NCBI RefSeq assembly: GCF_000003605.2
Contig: NW_003150787.1
Coordinates: 17,876 to 41,348, forward strand
Origin: Saccoglossus kowalevskii
Lineage: Eukaryota > Hemichordata > Enteropneusta > Harrimaniidae
Length of the DNA stretch: 23,473 bases
Reading direction: 5' to 3'
Below are positions 4,825-21,192 of the stretch, piece after piece (the first letter of the stretch is position 1; every line of letters starts with the position of its first letter). The position numbers and the translations under genes were made by a program. The notes below the pieces were generated by a model, which worked only from the letters and a program-made list of their open reading frames with translations, ran no database searches and was not told where the DNA came from.

Positions 4825-6496
4825 CATCTAATAGCTGTAGTTTGAGTCAACAAGAACCGAGTATATCGCCAATCGCCGTACAGCTGCCAGATTTGCTGTT
4901 TGGATAAACAATTGCGGTAAGTTATTTGCTCGGCTAGACTTTCCATCATGATCAAGTCGTTTAATATCCCAAAAGCTTTAGCGATGCTTTCTTGAAAGGG
5001 GTGTGTTCAACGATGGTTTGAGCTGTTTACTTGTTCTTCAGAAAATCAGAAGTCAGAAAATCTGTTGTTATCTGCGCAATGTTCCATGTAGCCCCTTATT
5101 TGACTTTTTACATTACGGTACGTTATGAAGTGACTTGCCCACATCATACCAATCTGAGATACTCGATCTCCATGCCCATTTCTACAGCTACAGAACAGAC
5201 CGTAGAAATACTAGAATGAAACCTGTTGTGGAAACATATCACAAACTAGATAAAACCATGCTGCCTGTATTAAAAAAGAAATTACGGAGGAAACAAATGT
5301 ATAACTTTTATCATGATTGCGTGACGTAAGCTAGTAACAATGGGTTCGGACTCAATACACACACATAATACACGTTTCTTTATCGTAGCTAGGTCAAAGG
5401 TAGAGTAAATGTCTGCCCATACAGATAAAATAAATCAGGTTTAACACTTGTAAAACAAAACAAAATACAGACTTTTGCTCCTTTTTAGCTTCATGACCCC
5501 CGGCTCCAAGCTACTAGTATATTTCGACCCCATCAGAAGAACATTTTTGCAGGGGTACTGGTAGCTATAGTGTATGGGTAAATTTGTTGAATTGCGTGAC
5601 TCACAAAAATGATGTGGGAAAATTCAGTCAAATATTGTTGATGCTGGAGTGTTCATTGTTTGAAAATTGTATTTATATTATATGGATTCTGTTTATATTT
5701 GTTTATGTTGCCACAACTTGGTGTACTAGTATTTGTTCGCATTGTGGATACTGTGATCTGCTGCAACGACTTGGGTTGGTTGGGTTTTTTTTATCTTAAG
5801 GGGATTACCTGGTGACAACTTTCACTCACTACTCAGGGACTGTGGTAGGACCTAGTGAGTCACTTCTGATTAACTTTCAAAATGATTTAAAATTAGATTC
5901 TTCATAATGTTTCCCCCCTTATAACTGTGTAAATGTTTTTTACATGTGCTTTTTAAGACAAGGAAGTAATTTTTCATCCTGGTAAAAGTGTTCTCAGCCG
6001 CAATATTGGGGGGTTGTATTTTATTAGTATATTTTAACACAGGTAGTGTAAGCTTCATTACAAATTGTTAGAATCTTGCTGAAGTACCGGTCTGTCACTC
6101 CAATGAATCCTGTACAAGTGGCTTTCATTCAAGAAGTTGTGATTGATACATTTGGTGTTCACAGGGTGTCCAGAAAATATGGGTGGAGTGGACGTACATG
6201 TACTAAAGATTAAGAAAATTCAAGGAAGAAAACAATCAGGCAGAATGCAGATGGAGTTCTGTATTGCACCAATGAGACATGCCATTAATCGCATTTTCAA
6301 AGTGTATTGTGTGATGCTTTGGACAAATTTATACTTTTCCCATGATGCAATGCATGCAACAGGCTGATAACGTTTTACGAGTCGCATATGTTTGTATTCA
6401 AAGCTACCAATAGTTAAAACAACAAATTTGCAATTGATGTTTTGTTTTTTTTGTAACTTATTAATGAGATCTAACTTTCATATTGTGTTTTTACAG

Positions 6497-6591
6497 GTGC
6501 AGTCTATTCTATCATTGGACAGTTTGTCTTTAAATTGAATTTTTAAATAAGTGTAAGGCCTGCTTATCGCAATTGAGAGGGCCACCCACAG
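6497..6591 (+). other. Probable 5' untranslated part of the first coding exon
   Basis: A good acceptor (tgtgtttttacag) ends at 6496. Between it and the start codon there are stops in the coding frame, the last being tga at 6574-6576. The coding frame therefore cannot extend upstream on genomic sequence, and this stretch would be untranslated. If transcription instead starts just upstream of 6592, the acceptor is spurious. Confidence 0.45.
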
Positions 6592-6723
6592 ATGAATATG
6601 GATGAATATGAAAAAGATAAAATACGGAGAAATGTAATCAGGAAGTTGAAACCAAGTCTAATGCAGGAAATAATTCCAAGTCAGATAATTCCAATAACAT
6701 CAATTTTGTCAACTATGGATGAG
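6592..6723 (+). CDS. Coding exon 1: N-terminal half of the CARD, with start codon
   Basis: This exon encodes residues 1-44 and ends in phase 0 at the donor gtaaat. It has the early CARD helices: a basic helix (KIRRNVIRKLKPSL) followed by IIPSQIIPITSILSTMDE, the usual run up to the next helix. Two in-frame ATGs occur within a tandem gatgaatatg repeat, at 6592 and 6598. The second has the better context (A at -3, G at +4), so translation may begin at residue 3. An in-frame stop at 6574-6576 rules out an upstream start on this exon. The CARD mediates homotypic CARD-CARD assembly in RLR and apoptosis pathways. Confidence 0.8.
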
Positions 6724-9700
6724 GTAAATAAAACTTAATTTAGTTTTTCATCTTCGCTGTCATTAACACACTACTATTCACCAGAAATATCCTTTGCTCA
6801 GAGTTGATGAATTCACTACTTGAGTACTGGTAATATCAGTGATATGATACACATATGGGTTAGGATACTTATAATAAAATAGAATGTGAACAAAGACTAT
6901 TAAAGTCATATTCATGTAACCATGCATGCCCTTATTACTGCAAGGCTCTGCTGAAACAGTGGAGCTATTTCAACCATCAGGTAGCTTTTCCTCACTTTGG
7001 TATAAACTCTACATGACTTGTATGTATGTACAAATTCCATACAAATTCAACTTGAGCAGTCCTGTGTCTGTGTCCCGTGTAATTTTTTTTTAAATGACTT
7101 TTTTCATGAAAACTCCAATGCTTTTATACATAACACATAGGTACTTTTGGTGATTTTGTTATGATTTCTTTAATTCTCTGTTTACCTCAACTGTCATCGA
7201 AGATAACAGGCAGAACTATAAGTATGCCATTGTATGTTTCTTGTAAACCAATACCTCTATTGCTTTTATTAAAGATGCAGAGCAGAGCTGTTTTTACAGC
7301 CAAAACAAAGTCAGCTTGGACTTTCAGTTGTGGGACATGACAGAAAAAACACAGCCAGTGATACATTTCGAAAATACAAATACAAAATTACAATGGAAAT
7401 AAATAGAACACGTTCTGACACAGTCTCACGCAAATGCACACACACATGCTATTTCCGTATATTGAATTCGTTGGCAAGGAAAAAGAAACACTGGAAGGGA
7501 CAAGTTTAAATTATGTTTAGCTCATCATAGTAGTAAGACAAAATAAAAGTATCGTACTATGATAACATATTGCAACGAACAGAAAACTAAATTGGCATGA
7601 TCTGAACTCGTCCCATGTCTAAATTAACACGTTATAAAACAGGATTCTGAATAAAAAATTATTTTCCCAGAAAATTTTATATGAGGAAATAGTTCCCATT
7701 TTGGATTCTTAGTCGAACAAGGGTAGTAAGAATTGTTTTCCTAATATTACTGGTATGATTTGAGGTTTAATATATTGGTCAACCAATATTACATATATTT
7801 TGATGAGATGATGTGCACTGTATTCAAGTTACTGAGAATTCACAAACATATCCTAAAACTTGAGTTGATGAAACCTAAACTTGTGCACTATTAAACTTAT
7901 CCTTATGTACACAATGCCAAGGAACTATATTATTTATTATTTTGTAATTTATTGTTGGTTTTATTATTTAATACATCTTTTGTGCTATTTTAACATGTGG
8001 GCATTAGCGATTCTCAAAACTTTCAGCAAATAAATAAAAAATACAATATACGAAAAAATATGTAATTTAAAAAAAAATGACCAAAAAACAACCGAAACTT
8101 GAATTTTATTTTAACCAAATTAATTAAGTGTGAGACATGATATCTTATAATGCAATACTACAATGTATCTCCACCAAATATTCTGCATCTGTTTCTTTGA
8201 CATGCTGGCAAATTGAGATGAATAATTCTTGTATATGGTTCATTTAATAAACTTCATATTACTTGTACATTGTGCAGGAGAATATTTTGTCAGAAGAGAA
8301 AAACCATGGTTCTATCCAAGCTGCTTCCATGTTCCTAGACAGAATAATGAAAAGAGGTCCGAAATGGTACGACACTTTGCTTGGAGCTTTACGGGATTGT
8401 GAAAAATCTCATCTCGCAACAGTAATCACAGAAGAAGTAGAAAAAAGTAAGAATCTTTTTTTTCCTGCAATAAACATGGTACATTTTCGCAGTTGAGTTG
8501 AAGTATATATACAAGATAGAATTTGATACGTTGAAAATCTTTTGAATTTCAACGGTCGGAGGGAATCTTGAATTGTTTTTTTTTCGTTTTTTTCAAGAGT
8601 GCAAATTAATAGGATACACATCAGTATTGGCAGATTTAACAAGAATTTCACACACAACATTGTCGTTCCAATATGCTTTGAAGAAAGTATGCAAGTCTGC
8701 CAAAAAGTAATGCTGTGACTTCAAAGTAATTTCCATGTCTCTGAATTACATTTAAAATGAAATTGGTAGAATATAAAAGCAACAAACCCACTGCCACAGT
8801 CAGGAAATCCACTTGATATTGAGCAATTCACTGCACACAGTAAATTGTGTATATCTTGTGGTATACTTGACTATGGCTGTGGTCTTATTCTTTGCATATA
8901 AGATTGAAATTTACCATGGTTTCAGATAAGCATTATTCTATTCCATTTCATTCTGTATATTACTCCACTCTATTTATCAAATTGTCAAATTCAGCTGTTT
9001 AGCTTGGCGAAATAAAAATTTGTTCTTTTAAAATACAGAATAATATCAGCACATAGAATGTCAACATGCAAATCCATTCTAGAATGAAATGTGTTGACAA
9101 ATATTTTTTTAGTATTTATTGAAACTTAAACATGGATAGTGTATATATCTAAATAAAGACAGGTAACTGTGATGGCAGTTTTTGTGATTGATTTGGAAAC
9201 TGCAATTTAAATGTACAACAAGAACAATTTGGTTATAAAACATAGACTCAAAACAGCTAGCTAACAGGAAGTTATGTTTTTTCTGAAAAACCATACTACA
9301 CATGCTAGAGCGGATTGAAACATAAAACCTGTTGTTTAAATCCAAAATATATCAATTGTGGGTAGGTATTTCCAGTATAGAAACTACAAATTTTACCACA
9401 AATTAGTCTGAAGATACTGTTTAGTGGCCAGTGGTGAAAAACAGTTATTTAAAAAAAAAATGATTTTCTTCAAAAAAACAAATCAATCATGAAAATTTCT
9501 CAAACATGATATAGTACTGAATTTGTCATTCATCACTGAGTGAAAATAGAAATAAAATCAAGAATAACAGGATTTCTTACCTTTTAGCCTTTTCGCCACC
9601 AGACTTTCTTGCCCAAATTTTTCTGCACTTTTTTCTTATATTCTTCAATATTTCTGGAAATGAACCATAATTTTGGAGCCAACAGACATTTTTTGAGTCA

Positions 9701-12700
9701 ACTTTTTGTTTTTACTAAACAAATTTGACTATTTTTGTCCTAATCTTCTGAAGAAAAGTGCAGACTATAAACAGAACTATTTTGTAAATTTGTGTTGAAA
9801 ATAGGGAACTGGTGGTGAAAAAGGTTAATGAGTACTCTCTGAATAGCTGCTGTGTACTGTCTATACACTCTGTGGAGTTTCTTTACCCAGTGGCCTCATT
9901 CTGAAACATGAAATGTTAGAGGGCGCTAGACTTATAAAAAGTGTTGATTGGTCAGTCATATAATACTATTTGAATATCTATTATTTACATTTTCTTGCAG
10001 TTGTATCACTTGAACAACCTAAAATCCCAGCATGCAATGCAGTTTTGAATCCTGTTTCATATGATGCTCAATCCCTTTTTTCCTAGAAAGTATAAAATGT
10101 TTCAAAGTTCACTTGACACAAAATCCCAAATACGTGTAAAAGGTTGCTTTAAAAATATGCCAGCCAGAAGATTTAGTGTGCATTTCAGTGGACGTTATGA
10201 TGCTACGTTTTTTTTAATAATAATTAGATAATTTACATATCAACCCTTTCATTTTAGCTGTCACCTTCCTCAAACTAGTTGTATGTTCTGTTTGTGCATA
10301 TTAATTAATTAGGTAATTTGCATATTATCAATTTCACCATCATTACTAACTTTTGTCACCTTTTGTATTAAACAACTTTTTACACACTGTGAAATATTTT
10401 CGTTTGGAATTAATTTTCGAAGTTTTTGTTGAAGGAATGATTCAGTGAAAATAAAATCCAGCGAATATACCTTTTTTTCTATATTTTACATTTAACTCAT
10501 CAGAAATCAGTGAAAATAAATTCCACACAAAATACACAAAAAGATTTTTTCAGCGAAAATTAATTCCAACTAAAATAAAAAAAATTTAAGGGTTATTAAC
10601 ACAGAATTAATACCCAATAAACTGGCGAATGTGTGTTTATGTTCACCTATATATATCTGTCACTCTTGAAAAAAATAAGTAGTGAATTAAGTAGGCATTT
10701 CACACACAAAAAAATTGCTGTACAACAGCCAAGTTTTCCAAAAAATGACAAGAATTTACATACAGTAATCACATGTGCTGCCATAGAGAATGCTTGAACA
10801 ACGCCAATGTAAAATCAATCGGTTTATTGCACATAGTATTGTGTAATGATATTGTGCTAATAAGTTGTAATGTTAGCAGTTAGTTGTCATAGATTACTTT
10901 AATCGCTTAGAGGTTAAACACATAACAACACGTACATGTACTGGTCTATCGTAATCAGGGCTCAAATCCAAGTGCCTCCTTCCTCCTAAGAGTATGCTTT
11001 ACTGCCTTTCGAAAAATACATGTTTTTCTTACATATTTCGAATACGCCTTGTATTTGCTTTGAAAATAAAGGCCTTCTCAATTCTAAAATCAGGCCCTTT
11101 TTAACCATGTGACTGCAGCTGTGTGGAGACACTTTTTCCTGTAGTTGTGAATCCGTAAAAACAGCTCTTTTATTATTCTCATGTCTACCTCTGTGATTGT
11201 ATTTTTGACAGCTGTCTACGACTTTCTATGTGCAAATGGACAAATATCAAGTTTATTAACTTTGGCCTTAAATAAACTGCGCATTTAAAGGTCAAAAGTT
11301 CACAGACATAGCTGCATTCTGGAAATGTGCCAAATGTTTATCTTGCAATTCAAAAACTGGAAAATTGAAAGAAATATAGATATAACATTTTGTAATTGGC
11401 TATACTTGAACTTATTTTTCATTTTGCTGATTTTTCAACCTAGGAAGAATGTTTAATTTATATAATGTGATCATTAAAGCATTTTTTTATTTATTAAATT
11501 ACAAACCACGTCAAATTTCATTTTTTTTGTGGAAATTAATTTTACTGAATAGATTACAGCATCATGCATGGGCAAGGCACTTAATCGTATCTGTTACATG
11601 TGTTCATTTGAAACTAGAAACTCAGAAGTGTGGCTTGTAGGGGTCAAAGACGAACGACCTAATTAGTATGCAGACAATGTTTGGTATGTGTCTTGCCAGT
11701 CGCATTGAGTACATGAATCTCATAGCTGTATGAGATCAGACAGATCCTTATATTTGGATTTGCAGCCCATAGTGACAGATTGAAAAGACTTGGGGTTTGA
11801 CTTACTCACTGGTAAGGCAATGATTGGTAAATTGTTAATAATAATAATAATCTAACTGTATTGCACTTGAGAAAAATAGTCAACTGAGCTCAGACAGTAC
11901 CATTTAAATTGATTGAAAGTGCATACTGTTATCTGTAATATTTCTTATATTCAGCTTTATGTGTACTGAGGCTGAGCTTCATCATTTAACTATGGCAATC
12001 AAGTTTATTTTATTACTCAAATAGAACAGTTAGTCTGAGCGTCCAACCAAATGTGATTTTCTTGTTCGTAAAATATTAACTGCATGAATTGGTCAGAGGT
12101 AATGATTAACAAGGTAAAGCCCATGTTGTTAGATTTCCCATGCTTGGACCATACTGTAAAATTTTACTTTATTTTTAGCTGGAATCAATTTTCACTTTTT
12201 TTTGCACTGATTTTTTAATGAGTTGAATGTAAAAAATAGGATAAAAATGGATATATATGCCCTTCAGCAAAAATAACAAAAAATAAATTCTAAGCGAAAA
12301 TAAAGTATTTTACAATATTTCATCTTAAATAATTAGTTGTAATATTCACGAGGTTATTAATTGCATTTTTTAAATGTCATTTTGACTCAGTGTTACATGG
12401 ATTATAAAATTTGGAAAAAAATTCTTTCCCCCTTTAATCTCTGAAACATTCTTTTGTATTATCTTATTCTCTCAATCTGAATTTATACCACTTGGCAATT
12501 TATCAGGATGTGTTTAACAAAATTGCAGCTTAAATTTCTTCAAAAAGTAATGAGCATATGTGTCTCATGATTTGAAAATATACATTTGTGACTGCCCAGA
12601 GGTCTTGAATCACTTGTGGGTGAAATATTTGTAAATTTATGTATTTTTCTAGGAATAGAAGTATGTCTGTCATGGAATATAAATATGTCTGTCACCTTGT

Positions 12701-15700
12701 GTTTGCAAATCAAAATGTCAGATATGAGGTCATGTCTTCACCGGAGCAACAAATGATAAAGACATTCAAAGCTGAAAAAATTATCGCCAACATTCACCTA
12801 GAAATTATTTTTTGTAGTATATACTACTACTACAACTTCAACAAATTCGCATTTTTATTTTTGAATTTCAAAGTCGACTTTTGCACATGGCAGTGCATAT
12901 TAAAGTAGGTAATCTGTATGTTGTCTCATTTCAGCCTGTGTAAGCAAAATTTCAACAAATTCAAAAAAGATTTTGATTAAACTTAGGCCAGACTTTTATT
13001 ATCCCTTGTTTCTCGAACCCGCCGAATGAACAGGAGCCGAAAATGAAATGAAATGAAAATAAAATTTTATTTCAGCGTAATTTCTCGCGCCGCTGACTTG
13101 TAAGGGCAAAAAAATGCTAAAAAATATTATTTTATTTTTTTTTACCGCTCGCCGCATAACAAATCCAAGTTGCATTTTCGTGGGAGTATCATGATGAAAG
13201 TACCAAAGTATCGCACAGATGAGAAACAAGGTTATACATGGAATAAAATTTTAATTTCATTTCTTCTCTCTGATCAATGATCTCACATACAATTCTTTGA
13301 GAATCACACAAATCAAATTGAAAAAAAAAAAAATAATTTTATCTTTTTCCCGCCCTCCACAAAAAAATTGCCTTATAAAAACTTAAGAAACAAAGAATAA
13401 AAAAAGTCTGGCCTTACTATATATTGGTATAGACCGTCTTGTGGTTGATGATCCTAACCTCTCATGTCATCGCTCTTTCTCTGACTGTTGTTAATTTACA
13501 CTTCCTGGATACGTATTTATAAAACAACAATGATTGTGTATATTCTGTATTCACACAAAGGCTTTGCTTTGCGGCGCTTGGTATTGTTTATTTTTTCAAG
13601 ATAACTTGTACTTCTTCTATGGGCATTTTTTTTTTGAGCTTTTATTTTATCATAATGTAGAAGTACTGGTATCACCACCGTTAGAATGTCACCATTCAGT
13701 GGGGTAACTACATTGTAGTTTTAACTACATAGCATTAACATTTTCCAAAACTGAAAAATTGTTTTTCTGATTGTATTGCAGTGTGTCCGCGGCCACCATC
13801 GCCATCACCTCCACCACCTCCATCACAGGCTGTAGACAATCAACCTTCTGCTAGTGCACCCTATTCAAACATTGCGACTAGTCAAAGAAACGACTGGCCC
13901 GCTCCACCTTTTCAAAGTCCAGCACCCCCACCACCACCACCACAGGTAGATACTCGACAACCACCAGCCTACCAATATCCACAGCAAGCAGCAGGTGTAT
14001 ACCCACCACAGCAACCAGTGAACCAGCAACCGTACCCACAGCAACCCAATTCATCCCACTCGCAAGCAGGAAACTTACCACAATCGGAATTTACACATAT
14101 ACCTACAACCAATCATCCAGGATATAGTCCACAGTACCAACATCATACATCAAACAGTCAGCCACTCCCATCAAGTCAACTGGTACATGTACAAACTGTT
14201 GAGTATCAACCCGCTCCACAATACAAGCCATTACCCCCTCAGCAGTTTCCACCACCGTCTGAACCACTAGCATTCCCTCATCAACCGTCCCAGAGCCCTC
14301 CGAAACAATCGGCAGTTGAGGTGCCTTATCTGCATCAACCAGTGGATAAACAAAAGCAAGTTCCCATGGCAACAGGTACAGAAAAAGCTGCAGTAGTCAT
14401 GGCGACTCCTTGCAATGGTGACACACCACTTCGTAGTGTTAGAGCCGATATTTTTAAAGCATTGCATCCTCTGAATGTTCATTCGCCACTTCATAAAGAT
14501 TGGAAAGGTCTTGCAGCCTGTTTTGGTGAGCTGATCAGAGTGAATTATAAAAATTATTAAATTCATATTAAGTATAATTCAATTATATTTTTTTTCAATA
14601 TTTTTTTCACAATTCAAATTAATTTTGTAGTCATTTTATATCAAAGTGTGTAATAGAGATTTCCAGCCTCTGACGAAATTTCACGTTGATCAAATTTAGA
14701 ATGTTCGAAAACATACATATACTTTGTATGACAATGAGACTTTTCTGTCATACTTGTATCGTTGTCTTAGTGAGAGATGTTTGATTATTATTCTTGGGTG
14801 TAGGTGTGTGTTTGAAGCTATTTCATTAATATGACTGTGATTACATTCAAACTTAACACAAATTTTTTTGGACATATTTTGTTTTTAATCATGTCTATGC
14901 CTGCCAATTCGTCATTAATACCCAGTATATCGCCTAATTCAGTAAAAATGTTGCACACAAGTACTTTTTTCATAGTTAATACCATTGATTTTATGACTTG
15001 ATCAAATTTGTCAAATTGACAACCATTTCGTCCAAAATCCTGAAATTATTATAATGCCTGGAGCTTTTTCTCAGAGATTTATTCAAATTTTTTATTGAGA
15101 TATATATATTGGGTTACAAATGCATGTTGCATTTTTTTCAAGATTGATTTCTTGTCCATTTTGCTTCTTCATTAATATACGGCATGATTCAGTTGAGAGT
15201 TTGTATTATTCACATATACCGGGGTATAATATCGTGGATTGTGTTATTTTGTCTAAAATGGAAGTCTGTAAATGTTTTAAGAATCATTTGTCACAGAAGG
15301 GCTTTGTATCAGGATCTTACATACTGGTTTACTGATGAACATCATTTTAAAAACTACTTCTCTGAGATGTCCTGCTGGAAGCCATTTTTGTTGTAAAAAT
15401 ACACTACATTCAGGTATTTTTACATGTTCAGTACAAGATCTCTGGCATGTGTGGGTCGATTTACTTCAAACTTTCATTCATAAACTAGTTTTGAATTCTA
15501 TTGTTGCCAAAAAACATCATTTTCTTGTTGAACACCTTGATAGGATCTATCGTTGAGAACAAGTACTTGTCTTAAATAACATATATGTCATGGATATTTT
15601 GAATTTACCAAGGACTAATAATTATCTACTATCATTTTCTTTATAAAGTATACAGTATTTAATCTGTCCTAGCAGCTTTCAATTTTACTTCTTAGCTCCG

Positions 15701-18542
15701 CTGTCGACTTTGTCAAGCGTAGCTTATCATTGTCTGTTGTTTGTGTCAACTTTTTACTTTTGCGACTTCTTTTTGAAAACTACAATTCTTGTTGCTTTGA
15801 TGCTTGGTGTATATGTGCCTTGGGCAGACCTCTTTTAAATTTGTTCATTTTGTGATGATATCTTTTTTTCTCTACTCTTGATGAATATTTGGTGAAAAGT
15901 CTGATTGCTTTGATACTATACATATAAGTACCTCAGATAGACTTCTCTAAGATTTGTTCATTTTCTAATGATGTCATCAGTTTTTTATTTGAAATGTGCA
16001 TTGCCAACAGCAGTGCTATCTCAGCCGAGAGGCTGCTTGTTATCTTATTTTGTCTATTCACTAATATAATAGCTTGGTCAGGAAAAGTTTGTAAGGGGCA
16101 GCAGTCATAATTGATGATTATGATTATAAATTACTCTTTTAAAAATGTTTGCAATCATTCCTTGTGTTCTGTTTAACACAATCACCTGCTGGAGCTTTTT
16201 ATCCTTTTCACCACCAGTTCCCTCTTTTTATCACAAATTCACAAAATAGTCCTATTTATTTCTGTCAGACACTGGGATAAATGAAGCCAAATTTTGTGAG
16301 TAAAAACTGACGGTTTGTGTTTTGGCTTTAAAATTACCGGGTAAGCTTCATTTCCAGAAATATTGAAGAAAATAAGAAAAAAAGTGCAGAAAATTTTGGG
16401 CATGAAAGTCTGGTGCTGAAAAGGTTATACTGATAATCCATGGAGGTTTTCAGTATTCAATGTGTCTAGACATGAATGAGAGCTGAATTGAATTGGTTAT
16501 ATAGTCATCATGAAACCTAGTATTAATATTGCTAATTTAAGTGTTCTCCAAAAATGACTACTGAAACCACAAACCATTTTCTTCACTTAACTTGCAGAAT
16601 ATACAGCTGAAGACGTTGGTAAGTTCGGACAATCCAAAAATCCAGTAGAGGACATGTATCATGACCTGAGTACCAAAAATGTTACCCTGGGTGATCTGAC
16701 TTCTAAAGTCCAAGAACTAGGAAGGCAGGATATACTGGATAATATTGACAAGACTGTTGGTTTTCGGCAACCTGAACCTACTGGAAGTGACAAGAAAATT
16801 GAGGTACAGTTTGTTTGTTTTTTCATATTTCTTGTTCAAATTATAATTGCTCATTGTGCTGAGAATAACAAATTTGGGTCCTTGGGTATTTCATCCCATT
16901 CCACAAAAAAAGTTAGTTTATTGGTTTACTGTAAAATACTTTATTTTAGCTGGAATTAATTTTCGCTGAAAAGACTTTTCGGGTGTTTTGTATGGAATTA
17001 ATTTTCACTGGTTTTTGAAAAGTTGAATATAAAATATAGGAAAAAAGGTATTTGCTGGAATTTATTTTCTCTGAACCATTCCTTCAGAAAATAGTGAAAA
17101 TTAATTCCAAGCGAAACTAAAAAGTAATTTACAGTATATGAATTTTAGATTATTTTTGTGCTATGCTCAATGAATGCTAAAATGAACAATGATTAATTCA
17201 CACACTGTCTACTAAGTTTGTCTGAGGTTCATCCACAAATGTATCATTATATTTTATAGATTGATTTTCCTCAACACATAGATGGTGGTCTAGTACCTGG
17301 TAAAATGATAACTATATGTGGTGCTCTCCCTGTTAATGTTCAAAGGTGCGTGACTTTGTCAAGATTGTCTAACAGTAAATCAACACAGTACAAAGTGCTT
17401 CTTCTCATTGAACATAAAACATTTTTTGTGACAATTACTCGTTCTCTGCATAAGTCAAACATTGTGGTATATTATGCATAAATTAAATGATACATTTCAC
17501 ATCATTATACACTCTATTTCATAAAGGCAAGAATGTTTTTTGAATAAAATATTCAAAAATTTCAAATGAAGGTTGAAAACGACCAATCATGTTAACTTTG
17601 CAGATGCATCCCTTTCTTATAGAATATCTTTCACAGGAATGACAGTATTAAAATTTGCCAATGATTGAAGGAAACCTGCAAAGACTTTTGGGTAATTGGC
17701 ATCACCGAATGTCTTCTATAGCCTATTAAAGCATCTTCTATGAATTTGATTAAAGTGCAAGGGTCTTCCGCGATAAATACTTTAATAAAAACATCTGTGC
17801 CATTATGAAACTCAGTGTACTGTAAAGGGGTTAATTATTCACTGGGTTTTAATTTGGCTTTTTTCGCTGACTGAAAAATGCGCTAAATTAAAACCCAGTG
17901 AATAATGTAAAATTGAGCATAGATCACATTATCCAAATGATAAAACAGTGAATTTTAAACCCACTAAATATGCCTGAAACGCTAAATCAGTGAAATTTAA
18001 ACCAGTGAAAATTAGTCATTTTACATATCCCATATTGTTGCCATAATGATTTTTCCATTTTCCATTTTCTCACTTTCATTATTTATATGACAGTGTCCTA
18101 AATGGCATGTAATCCATTAAATATAATCTAACAAAGTTGTTGTTACTTCCAGTACACCTTTTTAGTCAGGTCCTCTGTGACGACAATGGAAGAAATGATG
18201 GCCGTTCATAGTGTTGGTGTATCGTTCGATCTGTAATTAATCATTTTTTGTATATTATCATTTCATCTTTGTATTATCCATTCACTTGAATATTTAGATT
18301 TAGCGTCAATCTCCAAGTTGGTACCAGTACCGAACCACGTGCGGATATAGCCATTCACATAAGTGTTCGAGTGACGGAAGGCACGATTGTTAGAAATACC
18401 CTAGTGAATGAGGAGTGGCAGAAGGAGGAACGTGAGATTAAATTCCAACCGTTCCTTGCTGGCACAGAATTTGAATTGGTTATTAAAGTGGAAAAAGATA
18501 TGTACAAGGTATGCAATAAATAGGAAATGTATTCAGTTTCAT

Positions 18543-18597
<55 letters not shown>

Positions 18598-21192
18598 GTT
18601 GGTGGGTGAACAATCCAACGGTATTTCAGGTATTAATGGAAAAGTAAACCTAGCCCATCTTCATAATTGTTTATTTACCATAAACTAGTATGAATACTTT
18701 ACTCGGATTTTTATTATTGTTGCACACTTACGAACGAGAGAGCCTCATTACATGAACAAAGTTATTGACTTTCTTGAGCGGAGCTTAGAATATGAGTGAT
18801 TGTCTGTCATCGTATGTGTCAACTTCTTACCTTTTTGACTTTTTCTTGAAAACTACAATCCTGATTGCTTTGATACTTGGTGTATATGTACCTTGGGTAG
18901 ACTTCACTTAAATTTGTTCATTTCATGATATCTTCAATTCTCTAATTTTGATGAATATAATGATGAATGGTGAATGTAAATTTTGGTAAAAAGTGATATT
19001 TTTGACTTCTTGTTAAAAACTACAAGTCTGGTTGATTTGATATTATACATAAAGGTATTACAGGTGGACCCCTCTCTGATTTGTTCATTTTCTAATGATA
19101 TCTTTTAATTGAAATGTGCATTGCGAACAGCGGGGCTATCTCAGCCAAGAGGCTGCTTGTGATTATTTATGTTGCTTGGCAACCATACATTTTGCTTGGA
19201 AACCAATCATGTTATGTTACCAGAATTCATTTTTTCATTTAATATTTTAGGTTGATGTTAATGGGCTTCAGTTTTGTGATTACAAACACCGCATTCTGCC
19301 GTTGAAAAAAATTGATACATTAGATGTATCTGGAGAAGTTCGAGTGAATAGTGTGGACATCAGTGTACCTGTACAGGTAAATTAATTATTCAGTTCAATG
19401 TGACTTGCCCAACACTGGCTGGTGGTGAAATTTAATTTAATTTAAAAAAAACAAAAACTTTGTAATAAATTGTTTTACTACTAGTACCGGACACAGAATT
19501 AAAATATCAAATACATGATTCAGTATATCTGCACTATTAACTAACCATACTATAATGTACATATTACACTCGTCAAGTCAACAAAATTATTTCTGAGTGA
19601 TATTTGTTTAAATACTAGTAAAATAGGCCTTAGGTTTTGAGCACTTTTTTTCCAAGGGATAACAGAAATCCAATTGTAAACATCTATAAGTCACTTGTCA
19701 TGAAAGACACCCATTGCAAAGTGACTGGTAATTCAATAATCTTTGAACTCCAGTTTTGTATACCATCGCAAAAGCTCTTATTTCGAAAACTATCACCACT
19801 AGCATAAATGCCACTGGGGATATACATTTGTACATGTACAATGACAGTACTTAATTGTTGTTTTACTTACAGGAGTTACCAGATCCTGAGTTACTGACTC
19901 CAAACACTGCAAGTAAAGCAGAAGTTGTACCAGTAATACCTATAAATGTACCAGATGTTAAACCGGCTGCGACTATACCAGAACCAACTAATAGTCATTC
20001 AGAAAAGGAGATTTCAACAGAGCCACAGGTACCAGCAGACACAGTACCATCACTCTCTGAGCAGGTATCAGTGGAAGAAACAGTGACCACACCACAGGTC
20101 AACCAGGATGATGTGCTGGGGAATAAACCTTCAGAAGCTGTTTCACCTTTGCCAGACAGTTTGGTCAGTGGTATGAGTGATGGTGCAAACAGTATCTCAG
20201 AAAATGTGAGACAGGAGGAAACTGAAGCATCAGCATCTTCTGAGCTGACACTGATGGAAGAAACTAAATTATCTCCGCAGTCGGCTGGTGCTTCACCATT
20301 ACAAGATGCCAGTTCTAGTGAGGTTGCCAATGCTGTACAAGAGGCAGTGGATAAAGAGGAAAGTAAAGATTTGATATCTTTTGGAACACCACCAATTGAA
20401 GCAACTAAACCATCCTTGCAATTAGAGGACTCATCTCCTTTACAAGATACTGGTGCTGGTGACAGCAGTGAGGCTGCCAACGCTTTTTCCGATAAAGTGG
20501 GAGTGGAGGACACCAACGAAGTGATATCTTCTGAACTACCTCCAATGGAAGAAACTGAACAATTAAAGGAAAGTGGGGCTGGTGACAGCGAGTCAAACAA
20601 AAGCCATGCAGAAGCTGGTGGCCCTAGTGATGTTAAAATAGTTCCTGCTAATATTACAGTGACGCAGCTGGAAAACGATGAATACAATGATGGTAGGAAT
20701 TCAAGGTTTTTGCTTAGAGGGTCAGACGAGAACAATGAAGTAAGAGAAACAGCACCAGACCAAAAACTTAATGTGTCCAATGAGAACAATGTAGTAGTAG
20801 AGGATGAGAAAAACTTCAACACAGAAAATAATCTGGCGGAAGTATCCTGGGTCGATAATAACTGTTCCAGGCCATGCATCCAGAGTTCAGACTTGAATGT
20901 CACTACAGAAGAAGAAAAAATTGAAAACATTGACAAGCCAGCTGACAGCAGCCTTGATGAAAATACGGGGATGGAAGAGCGAACGACCGTTGGTGGATAT
21001 CAAGAAACTTCGCAGTCAGATGACCTACAAGGAGCAGCTTGTCCAGAATCTTATTCGTATATTGATTCTAAGAAAGATGGAGACACTAGGTCAAAGCAAC
21101 CTTCAGGGATGCCACACTTGAAAGTGATTGGTGCATGTAGTTTAGTAATTGCTGTGCTTGCTGCATTAGCATTCAGATTTGCAAGAAAATAA
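6592..21192 (+). CDS. CARD / Pro-rich / DEATH / galectin / tail-anchor adaptor, MAVS-like (whole gene, 8 coding exons)
   Basis: Joining 6592-6723, 8278-8446, 13782-14525, 16598-16803, 17260-17345, 18298-18508, 19251-19376 and 19873-21192 gives 2,994 bases, an uninterrupted frame of 997 residues plus stop. Every junction is GT-AG and every phase matches. The parts in order are CARD (1-100), Pro/Gln-rich region (101-310), DEATH (317-403), galectin domain (418-558), acidic repeat region with TRAF-like motifs (559-975) and a C-terminal membrane anchor (976-997). CARD, proline-rich region, TRAF motifs and tail anchor form the MAVS plan; MAVS relays RIG-I/MDA5 signals from the mitochondrial outer membrane. 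The role as an innate-immune adaptor is inferred. No clear pLxIS (IRF-recruiting) motif was found. A small exon hidden in the 5.3-kb second intron cannot be excluded. I give no gene symbol because orthology is not proven. Confidence 0.85.
6724..8277 (+). other. Intron 1 of the coding region
   Basis: This 1,554-base phase-0 intron splits the CARD. It is AT-rich and I see no gene in it. The only structure noted is an 8-bp inverted repeat, atattggt-ca-accaatat, at 7772-7789. Confidence 0.75.
8278..8446 (+). CDS. Coding exon 2: C-terminal half of the CARD
   Basis: This exon encodes residues 45-100 plus the first base of codon 101. The acceptor is ttgtgcag; the donor gtaaga leaves phase 1. The sequence carries the CARD middle and late helices: a helix with AASMFLDRIMKRG, then PKWYDTLLGALRDCEKSHLATVI. 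The pattern hydrophobic-helix, R/K-G-x-x-W-aromatic, L-x-x-L-R, x-L-A is typical of CARDs in RIG-I, MDA5 and MAVS. Together with exon 1 the domain is about 95 residues, the normal CARD length. Which CARD subfamily is closest cannot be decided by eye. Confidence 0.85.
9588..9824 (+). mobile_element. MITE-like element, family C, copy 1
   Basis: The element has terminal inverted repeats ccttttcgccaccag and ctggtggtgaaaaagg. Its first ~80 bases match, in reverse complement, the right part of the copy at 16203-16424. TTA lies one base outside the left end (ttag/cctttt) and directly outside the right end, so a TA or TTA target duplication is possible. It has no coding capacity and is presumably a non-autonomous DNA transposon. 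Confidence 0.8.
10386..10590 (-). mobile_element. MITE-like element, family A, copy 1 (reverse orientation)
   Basis: The sequence aligns along its length with the reverse complement of 16927-17136. Shared landmarks are ggaattaattttc near the left, acctttttttctatattttaca in the middle and cagcgaaaattaattcc near the right. The outer ends are degraded compared with the tactgtaaa ends of the other copies. It is non-coding. Confidence 0.75.
12152..12317 (+). mobile_element. MITE-like element, family A, copy 2 (shortened)
   Basis: The left end tactgtaaaattttactttatttttagctgg and the right end aagcgaaaataaagtattttacaata are imperfect inverted repeats. The internal text (gaatcaattttcac, gagttgaatgtaaaaaatagg) matches 16927-17136 in the same orientation. 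At about 166 bp it is shorter than the other copies (about 205-210 bp), which suggests an internal deletion. Confidence 0.75.
12986..13413. mobile_element. MITE-like element, family D, with TTA flanks (PIF/Harbinger-like)
   Basis: The ends are ggccagacttttattatccc and the matching inverted form with ttctttgtttc and aaaaaaagtctggcc, giving inverted repeats of roughly 25-30 bp. The triplet TTA flanks both ends directly (ctta/ggcc and ggcc/ttac), consistent with the 3-bp TTA/TAA target duplication known for PIF/Harbinger transposons. The 428-bp element encodes no transposase. It sits 368 bases upstream of the proline-rich exon. Confidence 0.75.
13782..14525 (+). CDS. Coding exon 3: Pro/Gln-rich region and start of the DEATH domain
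   Basis: This exon encodes residues 101-348. Its first two bases complete an ATG codon with the last base of exon 2. Residues 101 to about 310 are low-complexity and dominated by Pro, Gln, Ser, Tyr and His, with runs such as PPPPP and repeated YPQQ-type units. This matches the proline-rich linker of MAVS proteins, which is a docking region for signalling partners. From about 317 (LRSVRADIFKALHPL) the helical DEATH domain begins, ending in DWKGLAACF at 340-348. The donor ggtgagc leaves phase 1. If the donor is not used, the frame reads on for 11 codons (GELIRVNYKNY) to a stop ending at 14560. Confidence 0.88.
15705..16040 (+). repeat. Dispersed direct repeat E, copy 1
   Basis: The sequence matches 18766-19160 in the same orientation, with shared landmarks ttgaaaactacaat, tttggtgtatatg-like text, aaatttgttcattt, gaaatgtgcattgc and gctatctcagcc-agaggctgcttgt at the right end. 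The unit is itself built of two diverged halves, each containing a aaaactacaa...gatttgttcatttt block. It has no inverted termini or coding capacity, so its class is unknown. Confidence 0.8.
16203..16424 (-). mobile_element. MITE-like element, family C, copy 2 (opposite orientation to copy 1)
   Basis: The ends ccttttcaccaccagttccc and ctggtgctgaaaagg are inverted repeats. The reverse complement of the right ~80 bases is nearly identical to the left of 9588-9824, including a shared gcccaaa-ttttctgcac stretch. It lies about 170 bases upstream of the DEATH-domain exon. Confidence 0.8.
16598..16803 (+). CDS. Coding exon 4: main part of the DEATH domain
   Basis: This exon encodes residues 349-417; the first two bases complete a Glu codon. 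With the end of exon 3 it forms a six-helix DEATH domain. The markers are DW (340-341), LA (344-345), YTAEDVGKF (350-358), NP (363-364), MYHDLSTK (368-375), VTLGDL (377-382), and L-G-R-x-D-I-L (389-395). This pattern resembles MyD88 and IRAK death domains, which assemble into helical signalling oligomers. A short Pro/Lys linker (QPEPTGSDKKIE) leads to the phase-0 donor gtacag. Assignment to DEATH is firm; the closest subfamily is a judgement by eye. Confidence 0.88.
16927..17136 (+). mobile_element. MITE-like element, family A, copy 3
   Basis: This is the best-preserved copy. The left end tactgtaaaatactttatttt and the right end aaaaagtaatttacagta are inverted repeats, extending to ggaattaattttc on both sides, about 40 bp in all. 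It is non-coding. It lies in the intron between the DEATH and galectin exons. Confidence 0.85.
17260..17345 (+). CDS. Coding exon 5: N-terminal strands of the galectin domain
   Basis: This exon encodes residues 418-445 plus two bases of codon 446. The text IDFPQHIDGGLVPGKMITICGALP is the standard galectin opening, with the GGL-x-PG-x-x-I-x-x-x-G motif. The acceptor is ttttatag and the donor gtgcgt (phase 2). The exon starts exactly at the galectin domain boundary in phase 0. Confidence 0.88.
17346..18297 (+). other. Intron 5 of the coding region
   Basis: This 952-base phase-2 intron lies inside the galectin domain at the position just before the RF-x-x-NL strand, a usual galectin intron site. 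It contains the fold-back element at 17818-18025. Nothing else is recognised. Confidence 0.8.
17818..18025. mobile_element. MITE-like fold-back element, family B
   Basis: Outer ends tactgtaaagg and the inverted form catttt-aca resemble the ends of family A. Inside, a perfect 22-bp inverted repeat occupies 17834-17855 and 17885-17906, and the motif cagtgaa-ttaaacc recurs near 17945, 17985 and 18002. It could form a strong hairpin in the transcript. It is non-coding. Confidence 0.75.
18298..18508 (+). CDS. Coding exon 6: sugar-binding core of the galectin domain
   Basis: This exon encodes residues 446 (completed) to 516. It opens with RFSVNLQVG, the galectin F-x-x-NL-x-G strand. The ligand-contact residues of galectins (numbered by galectin-1) map as follows: His44 to H466, Arg48 to R470, Val59 to V477, Asn61 to N479, Trp68 to W486, Glu71 to E489 and Arg73 to R491. 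The one clear change is Asn46 to S468. The spacing from N479 to W486 and on to E489 and R491 is canonical, so binding of a beta-galactoside-type sugar is plausible, possibly with altered preference. The donor gtatgc leaves phase 0. Confidence 0.9.
18509..19250 (+). other. Intron 6 of the coding region
   Basis: This 742-base phase-0 intron contains copy 2 of dispersed repeat E (18766-19160). Nothing else is recognised. Confidence 0.8.
18766..19160 (+). repeat. Dispersed direct repeat E, copy 2
   Basis: It is homologous to 15705-16040 in the same orientation, ending in the shared gctatctcagccaagaggctgcttgt. It is longer than copy 1, mainly because of an extra segment around 18950-19000 (tgatgaatataatgatgaatgg). 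Confidence 0.8.
19251..19376 (+). CDS. Coding exon 7: C-terminal strands of the galectin domain
   Basis: This exon encodes residues 517-558 and begins and ends in phase 0. It contains VDVNGLQFCDYKHR, the galectin VNG-x-x-F-x-x-Y-x-HR signature, followed by ILPLKKIDTLDVSGEV, the final conserved strand. This completes a normal galectin domain of about 140 residues. Its last codons, PVQ, together with Glu of the next exon form PVQE (556-559), a match to the TRAF2-type (P/S/A/T)-x-(Q/E)-E motif. Confidence 0.9.
19377..19872 (+). other. Intron 7 of the coding region
   Basis: This 496-base phase-0 intron separates the galectin cassette from the C-terminal exon. It is AT-rich and no repeat or gene is recognised. 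Confidence 0.8.
19873..21192 (+). CDS. Coding exon 8: acidic TRAF-motif region and C-terminal tail anchor
   Basis: This last coding exon encodes residues 559-997 and the TAA stop. Most of it (559-970) is hydrophilic, rich in Glu, Ser, Asp and Thr, and probably unfolded. Residues 663-797 form three imperfect repeats. TRAF-like motifs within it are PLQDA (700-704), PLQDT (747-751, P-x-Q-x-T as in the MAVS PVQDT site) and PMEETE (782-787, fitting the TRAF6 P-x-E-x-x-acidic/aromatic pattern). The final 22 residues hold a 17-residue hydrophobic stretch, VIGACSLVIAVLAALAF, then the basic tail RFARK. That is typical of tail-anchored outer mitochondrial membrane proteins such as MAVS. There is no signal peptide, so the rest should face the cytosol. 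Confidence 0.88.
   Translation, partial: ELPDPELLTPNTASKAEVVPVIPINVPDVKPAATIPEPTNSHSEKEISTEPQVPADTVPSLSEQVSVEETVTTPQVNQDDVLGNKPSEAVSPLPDSLVSGMSDGANSISENVRQEETEASASSELTLMEETKLSPQSAGASPLQDASSSEVANAVQEAVDKEESKDLISFGTPPIEATKPSLQLEDSSPLQDTGAGDSSEAANAFSDKVGVEDTNEVISSELPPMEETEQLKESGAGDSESNKSHAEAGGPSDVKIVPANITVTQLENDEYNDGRNSRFLLRGSDENNEVRETAPDQKLNVSNENNVVVEDEKNFNTENNLAEVSWVDNNCSRPCIQSSDLNVTTEEEKIENIDKPADSSLDENTGMEERTTVGGYQETSQSDDLQGAACPESYSYIDSKKDGDTRSKQPSGMPHLKVIGACSLVIAVLAALAFRFARK
20185..20589 (+). repeat. Three imperfect ~38-50-residue repeats within the coding sequence
   Basis: The repeats cover residues 663-709, 710-759 and 760-797. Each has an ANA/ANS-x-x-x-x-x-V start, an acidic EE/ED segment, a SSEL or ISFG step, a P/L-x-E-x-T-x motif, and in the first two S-PLQD-x-x-x-x-(D)SSE. 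They look like an internal duplication that multiplied the TRAF-like motifs. Confidence 0.75.

Follow-up and report, generated by a model that had tools for sequence, protein, structure and literature searches.

A probable MAVS-type adaptor gene carrying a galectin domain in the hemichordate Saccoglossus kowalevskii

Introduction

MAVS proteins that carry a Death domain have been described in molluscs. Oyster MAVS consists of a CARD, a Death domain, and a transmembrane segment (TM). Its CARD mediates an interaction with RIG-I, TRAF6 is recruited, and the protein did not by itself activate NF-kB in HEK293T cells (PMC5557890). In scallop, two parts of MAVS bind an IKK-family kinase, the Death domain at its first coiled coil and the CARD at its kinase domain, and full-length MAVS and IKK did not co-precipitate (PMC9879056). 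Because the NF-kB result in oyster and the co-precipitation result in scallop were negative, the signalling output of these relatives is not fully clear.

A second line of work concerns membrane damage. In mammals, the N-domain of galectin-8 gathers on endosomes damaged by picornaviruses (PMC7931364), and the activation and recruitment of TBK1 at adenovirus penetration sites need galectin-8 (PMC9342788). MAVS complexes recruit TBK1 too (PMC6723221). RLR-MAVS signalling and galectin-8 damage detection, as presented in the cited sections, reside on separate chains in mammals, and both are tied to TBK1. Here, a hemichordate gene is described whose predicted product appears to combine a MAVS-type layout with a galectin-8-type domain.

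A predicted eight-exon gene

The stretch of DNA that was analysed (the window, 23,473 nucleotides) covers positions 17876-41348 of contig C4092 in an assembly of 572 Mb and 4830 contigs. The gene spans window positions 6592-21192 on the plus strand, and its features are the following.

6497..6591, + strand: possible 5' untranslated part of exon 1, inferred from the acceptor-like site TTTTTACAG, which ends at 6496
6592..6723, + strand: exon 1, start codon and first half of the CARD, aa 1-44; CARD_2 match when joined
8278..8446, + strand: exon 2, second half of the CARD, aa 45-101
13782..14525, + strand: exon 3, Pro/Gln-rich linker and start of the probable Death domain, aa 101-349
16598..16803, + strand: exon 4, remainder of the probable Death domain, aa 349-417
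17260..17345, + strand: exon 5, first exon of the galectin cassette, 86 nt
18298..18508, + strand: exon 6, long middle exon of the galectin cassette, 211 nt, with the Arg59 loop, HISVRV, and WQKEER
19251..19376, + strand: exon 7, final exon of the galectin cassette, 126 nt
19873..21192, + strand: exon 8, acidic Ser/Glu-rich tail, two PLQD(A/T)-type repeats, transmembrane anchor, and stop
21115..21189, + strand: C-terminal membrane anchor, aa 973-997, a hydrophobic stretch between K and R/K (hydropathy)

Joined together, the eight exons form a 2994-nt frame of 997 codons plus a stop, free of internal stops, and re-joining reproduced exactly the exon end points and protein length given in the initial annotation. 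All seven introns are of the GT-AG type, with exon end phases of 0, 1, 1, 0, 2, 0, and 0. An in-frame stop is present at 6574, 18 nt 5' of the ATG, and the acceptor-like site 95 nt 5' of the ATG suggests that a first exon without coding sequence precedes it. Scored with a simple consensus, the donors of six of the seven introns rank in the best 6% of the GTs in the window. Intron 4 has a weak donor, as 25% of the window GTs score equally well. For the acceptors, the ranks among window AGs run from the best 4% to the best 22%.

The open frames that hold exon 8 (445 codons) and exon 3 (273 codons) are longer than the longest frame found over 200 dinucleotide shuffles of the window (169 codons). 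A 334-codon open frame on the minus strand (19995-20999), antisense to exon 8, also exceeds this maximum, and frame length alone is therefore no proof of exon 8. The antisense frame matched no Pfam family and is perhaps a mere shadow of the biased composition of the tail. Likewise, five long non-exon frames, out of 121 frames listed with the exon frames included, showed no Pfam family above the cut-off, and a search of the window with Rfam found no families. The window also contains repeats. At positions 1-243, a 34-bp unit is repeated about seven times in tandem. Intron 3 (15739-16043) and intron 6 (18812-19163) carry related copies of a repeat of roughly 300 bp, and further inverted copies pair intron 2 with intron 3 and also with intron 4.

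Do the eight exons belong to one gene? Four of the seven introns lie within domains, namely intron 1 in the CARD, intron 3 in the sub-threshold Death match, and introns 5 and 6 in the galectin domain. Thus, the joins of exons 1-2, 3-4, and 5-7 are backed by homology, and the predicted joins 2-3, 4-5, and 7-8 are based on the frame and the splice sites. On these grounds the eight exons very probably form a single gene. An arrangement as two adjacent genes was also considered and is disfavoured, because introns 1, 3, 5, and 6 fall inside homology domains and exon 8 has no early start.

With the whole protein as query, 15 places in the genome matched at an E-value of 0.001 or below: the eight exons in the window, four galectin exons on contig C353, and three CARD exons on contigs C2922 and C3161. 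No second copy of the linker, the Death region, or the tail appeared in this search at that threshold. At the sensitivity of the search, the predicted gene is single-copy in its own genome. The flanks covered on contig C4092 consist mostly of N.

The CARD and RIG-I-related domains in the same genome

A Pfam search of the whole product, a check that the initial annotation had proposed, returned firm CARD_2 and Gal-bind_lectin matches and a Death match just under the cut-off. The CARD claimed in that annotation is thus secure, as it matches the RIG-I/MDA5/MAVS family CARD_2 (PF16739) over aa 9-96 with an E-value of 2.4e-14 and 53.5 bits (cut-off 28.2). The general CARD model reached 23.8 bits against a cut-off of 23.9 (E 4.7e-5). 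Exon 1 alone gave no CARD_2 match and exon 2 alone gave 36.9 bits, and the joined 105-aa piece gave 59.3 bits. A search of the CARD and Death pieces against NCBIfam returned nothing meaningful.

Among PDB chains, the CARD is nearly equally like that of RIG-I (E 1.9e-4) and that of MAVS (E 2.7e-4). Its nearest relatives in its own genome are the CARDs on contig C2922, which lie near RIG-I C-RD exons. In a CARD tree, it was placed with these CARDs and the second CARD of RIG-I (support 84/92) and not with MAVS; this tree of 18 rows, in which the MAVS and RIG-I rows are partial, is weakly supported and serves as a hint only.

In the same genome, RIG-I C-RD was found in four hits on three contigs (C3161, C2797, and C2922), and CARD_2 exons lie 5-23 kb from the C-RDs on C3161 and C2922, where proximity is the only ground for placing them in one gene. 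IRF exons were found in five hits on two contigs. Searches of the same genome for STING_LBD and TBK1_CCD1 gave no hit, which is uninformative because the controls were silent too. The MAVS-like plan proposed initially is supported by the CARD, the Pro-rich linker, and the tail anchor, together with RIG-I C-RD and IRF in the same genome, and the product is likely to be a MAVS-type adaptor as far as its sequence can tell.

Three further observations were made on other contigs. At 669-688 kb of contig C2922, two likely RLR-type genes stand in tandem, in each of which one CARD_2 exon and one RIG-I C-RD exon are grouped by proximity. At ~119.8-122.2 kb of contig C1466, four CARD_2-type matches occur within 2.5 kb, of which three are above the cut-off and one has an internal stop. 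The frames that follow these matches look kinase-like by eye, and Pfam found CARD and no kinase in four exon pieces. On the mitochondrial contig C4830 (17,037 bp), COX1 runs in the opposite direction to frames that by eye resemble ND1, ND2, ND5, and cytochrome b. In its matched COX1 stretch, eight codons are ATA; in an alignment with the best PDB sequence they stand opposite Ile five times, Val twice, Leu once, and Met never, and the single AAA codon stands opposite Lys. ATA has been reported to encode Ile in echinoderms and hemichordates, and AAA to encode Lys in Saccoglossus and Asn in echinoderms (PMC2697986), and this code thus points to a hemichordate.

The Death domain, linker, tail, and anchor

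The Death model (PF00531) matched aa 335-400 over profile positions 12-84 of 86, with an E-value of 1.4e-4 and 22.4 bits against a cut-off of 22.6. The bacterial Death-like family bDLD3 scored 20.7 bits on the whole product (cut-off 27.1). In a joined 115-aa piece of the Death region, Death scored 19.1 bits (E 0.0014) and bDLD3 scored 25.5 bits, and the two halves taken apart (aa 301-348 and aa 350-417) gave no Death match at E up to 1. Matches of this region in the PDB were weak, the best being IRAK3 at E 0.49. A search of the genome with this region recovered the two exons that encode it and one weak match on contig C3164 (E 0.083, 32% identity). The DEATH domain named in the initial annotation therefore stands as a match on the joined exons 3 and 4, and falls just short of the Pfam cut-off. 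A Death domain, sub-threshold in Pfam, probably lies between the CARD and the anchor.

The linker (aa 102-300) consists of 26% Pro and 16% Gln, a composition that agrees with the Pro/Gln-rich region described before. The 418 residues after the galectin domain (aa 553-970) form a tail with a net charge of -58. This tail had been described as an acidic TRAF-motif region, and the acidity is clear, but TRAF motifs do not clearly exceed the number expected by chance. Motifs of the form [PSAT]x[QE]E were observed six times against 3.15 expected (P 0.09), and the TRAF6-type motif was observed once against 0.90 expected. The protein contains PLQDT, PVQE, and PMEETE. PVQ[DE] occurred once against 0.03 in shuffles (P 0.025) and was the only significant one when seven motifs were tested in two regions. 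Autophagy LIR-type motifs numbered one in the tail (1.63 expected) and four in the linker (1.78 expected, P 0.087). Pieces of the acidic tail are duplicated at 20242-20589 (aa 682-797), in the forms SPLQD..SSE(V/A)ANA and EL..MEET, and one of them gives a PxQxT-type motif.

Hydropathy upholds the C-terminal membrane anchor. The strongest hydrophobic stretch of the protein, and its best 19-mer, is aa 974-992 (KD 2.42), which ends five residues before the C terminus and is followed by RFARK. It is short and has basic flanks, as in a tail anchor. Mitochondrial targeting, predicted from this tail, is plausible.

The galectin domain

The galectin domain is a true and complete CRD by its Pfam profile, as had been claimed. 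Gal-bind_lectin (PF00337) matched aa 421-552 over profile positions 3-131 of 132, with an E-value of 1.5e-35 and 122 bits (cut-off 22.1). The best PDB chain, at 9.4e-51 over the entire chain, was a galectin-8 with two CRDs, of which the N-CRD scored 94.0 bits and the C-CRD 79.0 bits. Identity was highest to the first CRDs of two galectin genes on contig C353 (69/137 for gene A and 67/137 for gene B), followed by the galectin-8 N-CRD (60/131) and the second CRD of each C353 gene (52/136).

Does this domain bind sugar? In galectin-8N, residues H65, N67, R45, and R69 hold the O4' of lactose (PMC5175137). Arg59 is described as the crucial residue for sialylated glycans and as typical of deuterostomes, and it is absent from the scallop galectins examined in the same paper (PMC10343441). 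In galectin-8N numbering, with H65 anchored on HFNPRF, the domain in the window keeps R45, H65, R69, N79, W86, E89, and the Arg59 loop. Its HFNPRF core has become HISVRV, with N67 and Q47 both replaced by S, so the full HxNxR core with all sugar contacts is absent, as N67 is S. Sugar binding is uncertain because of this altered core. The expectation that the domain, as a galectin, binds beta-galactosides thus finds the Arg59 loop and six sugar-contact positions on its side and the altered core against it, which makes such binding doubtful.

Origin of the galectin cassette

When the genome was searched for the galectin domain, eight exons matched. Two belong to the MAVS-like gene and six lie on contig C353, where they look like two tandem-repeat galectin genes ~95 kb apart. 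The exons of CRD1 in gene A measure 89, 211, and 123 nt, compared with 86, 211, and 126 nt in the window cassette, and the two have the phases 0-2-0-0 in common. In both, a phase-2 intron splits the same Arg codon and the next intron, in phase 0, precedes the VxVNG strand. Gene B has the same 211- and 123-nt exons, and its first exon was found and not delimited. The second CRDs have no intron at the second cassette position; they keep HFNPRF, and the part from strand S3 to the stop is a single exon. The cores of the two first CRDs are HLAIRV and HFAARV (N67 replaced by A), with the Arg59 loop kept.

A long middle exon from S3 to F4 is a published hallmark of CRD1 in the cited sections of PMC10343441. 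The window cassette bears the marks of the galectin-8 CRD1 lineage, namely the long S3-S4 loop with Arg59 and the S3-F4 middle exon. A galectin tree of nine rows, to be taken as a hint only, placed the window domain nearest to both first CRDs by path, without strong support. Judged by this intron layout and similarity, the cassette in all likelihood derives from the galectin CRD1 lineage.

How did the cassette come to lie in this gene? Its phase-0 borders, its length of 423 nt, and its neutrality to the frame form the signature of exon shuffling with a symmetrical module. If exons 5-7 are left out, exon 4 fuses to exon 8 in frame, which gives an 856-aa product of the order CARD-Pro-Death-tail-TM, a layout similar to that of mollusc MAVS. 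Gain of the galectin from another organism was considered and is disfavoured, because the intron layout and the nearest sequence are those of the genome's own galectin CRD1. A search of viral contigs with the galectin domain gave eight pattern matches and no relative.

Proposed mechanism and alternatives

The preferred and most economical reading of the whole chain, held tentatively, is a hemichordate MAVS-type tail-anchored adaptor with a shuffled galectin-8 CRD1-type domain, damage sensing included. Exon shuffling would have placed a complete domain of this type after the Death domain and before the acidic tail. As in the known families, the CARDs of RNA-bound RLRs would engage the CARD of the adaptor and nucleate clustering, and the Death domain and tail would recruit kinase and ubiquitin-ligase partners for an IRF/NF-kB output. 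In the least certain step, the galectin domain, facing the cytosol on the organelle surface, may bind glycans exposed on ruptured endosomes or vacuoles. The adaptor would thereby be concentrated at entry sites, and a single molecule would read both RNA and membrane damage. Glycan or damage sensing by the galectin domain, taken by itself, is somewhat doubtful. A more specific version, in which the domain recognises sialylated or unusual glycans on virus-ruptured endosomes and makes the protein a coincidence detector of RNA and rupture, is unlikely. Here, the entry lesion would tether, or license, a mitochondrial (or peroxisomal) antiviral platform, and a plain MAVS could be made by leaving the cassette out in frame.

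What else could the galectin domain do? Galectin-related proteins are thought to act as protein-docking or oligomerisation modules, and the domain may no longer be a lectin and may instead tune clustering or recruit a partner in this way. The HISVRV core fits this idea, and the two first CRDs on C353 lack N67 and the two second CRDs keep HFNPRF; canonical galactose binding may thus have been lost in the CRD1 lineage by about the time of the fusion, or earlier. A pure docking module, however, would have no need of R45, H65, R69, N79, W86, E89, and the Arg59 loop, all of which are kept, and loss of the lectin function is rather doubtful. A different question is whether the chain is a MAVS at all. 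RAIDD consists of a CARD and a Death domain, and the gene might encode a tail-anchored CARD-Death adaptor of the cell-death or inflammasome type, RAIDD-like and outside the RLR pathway. RAIDD is among the weak PDB matches of the CARD (3crd, E 0.11), and TRAF motifs that do not clearly exceed chance would suit such a protein. This assignment is quite improbable, as PF16739 (53.5 bits) scores far above the general CARD model (23.8 bits), the nearest own-genome CARDs are close to RIG-I C-RD exons, and the predicted order CARD-Death-TM is the same as in the experimentally studied mollusc MAVS (PMC5557890, PMC9879056; cited sections).

The remaining alternative is that the full architecture is not made: exons 5-7 would usually be skipped, transcripts would stop in intron 7, or two genes would overlap. 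The frame-neutral 423-nt block and the weak intron 4 donor are compatible with skipping, and read-through into intron 7 adds VN before a stop at the third codon, with an AATAAA at 19464. However, AATAAA is common across this AT-rich window, the splice sites of the cassette are all GT-AG, and the galectin domain is complete, stop-free, and ~50% identical to its donor lineage. Furthermore, exon 8 contains no Met in its first 100 residues and, up to an E-value of 1, matches no Pfam family. A gene that fails to make the full chain is highly improbable on this evidence. The same read-through (19377-19469) points to a possible anchor-less isoform that ends after the galectin domain.

Comparison with known systems

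The galectin cassette is the new part of this layout, as CARD-Death-TM is already published for molluscs. The initial annotation had singled out the galectin in this way, and this agrees with a search of open-licence PubMed Central, by titles and the starts of abstracts, in which none of the matches listed concerned a galectin domain joined to a MAVS or CARD protein. The word galectin is absent from the text of PMC8998645, PMC9879056, PMC6723221, and PMC5557890, and the cited sections of PMC9334734 describe no MAVS-galectin fusion and report Aplysia to be without MAVS. Automated gene predictions in public protein databases may already contain the model under some name. The Death domain is not new, given the published oyster and scallop proteins (PMC5557890, PMC9879056; cited sections). 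The proposed coupling to Toll-type signalling through the Death domain found nothing in its support; a Death domain does not imply such signalling, because CARD-Death-TM is the published layout of mollusc MAVS.

Oyster CgMAVS and scallop CfMAVS likewise have an N-terminal CARD, then a Death domain (probable in the present protein), and a C-terminal anchor (PMC5557890, PMC9879056; cited sections), and within the papers cited the predicted gene would extend this Death-containing MAVS plan from molluscs to a deuterostome. CgMAVS has a Death domain in place of the proline-rich region, whereas here a Pro/Gln-rich linker lies between the CARD and the Death domain. Vertebrate MAVS likewise has a CARD of the RIG-I/MAVS family, a proline-rich linker, and a C-terminal anchor (PMC5557890, cited sections). 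Its plan as given there has neither Death nor galectin, and in the present protein the TRAF motifs do not clearly stand out. With the galectin-8 N-CRD and the CRD1 of tandem-repeat galectins, the domain shares its sequence, the three-exon layout with the long S3-F4 exon, and the Arg59 loop. It differs from the galectin-8 N-CRD in having HISVRV for HFNPRF, in being a single CRD, and in its place inside a membrane-anchored adaptor. The locus would make a clean case of exon shuffling, with the likely donor, the cassette borders, and the phases readable in one genome, and the form made, plain or lectin-bearing, should depend on whether the three exons are skipped.

In its manner of working, and only in that respect, the adaptor would resemble the mammalian galectin-8/NDP52/TBK1 system, as it too would detect the rupture of endosomes and pass the signal to a TBK1-type pathway. 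A natural fusion of MAVS with a galectin-8-type domain would suggest that RNA and rupture inputs belong together. In the mammalian damage pathway, the lectin and the adaptor are two proteins, whereas here they would be one chain.
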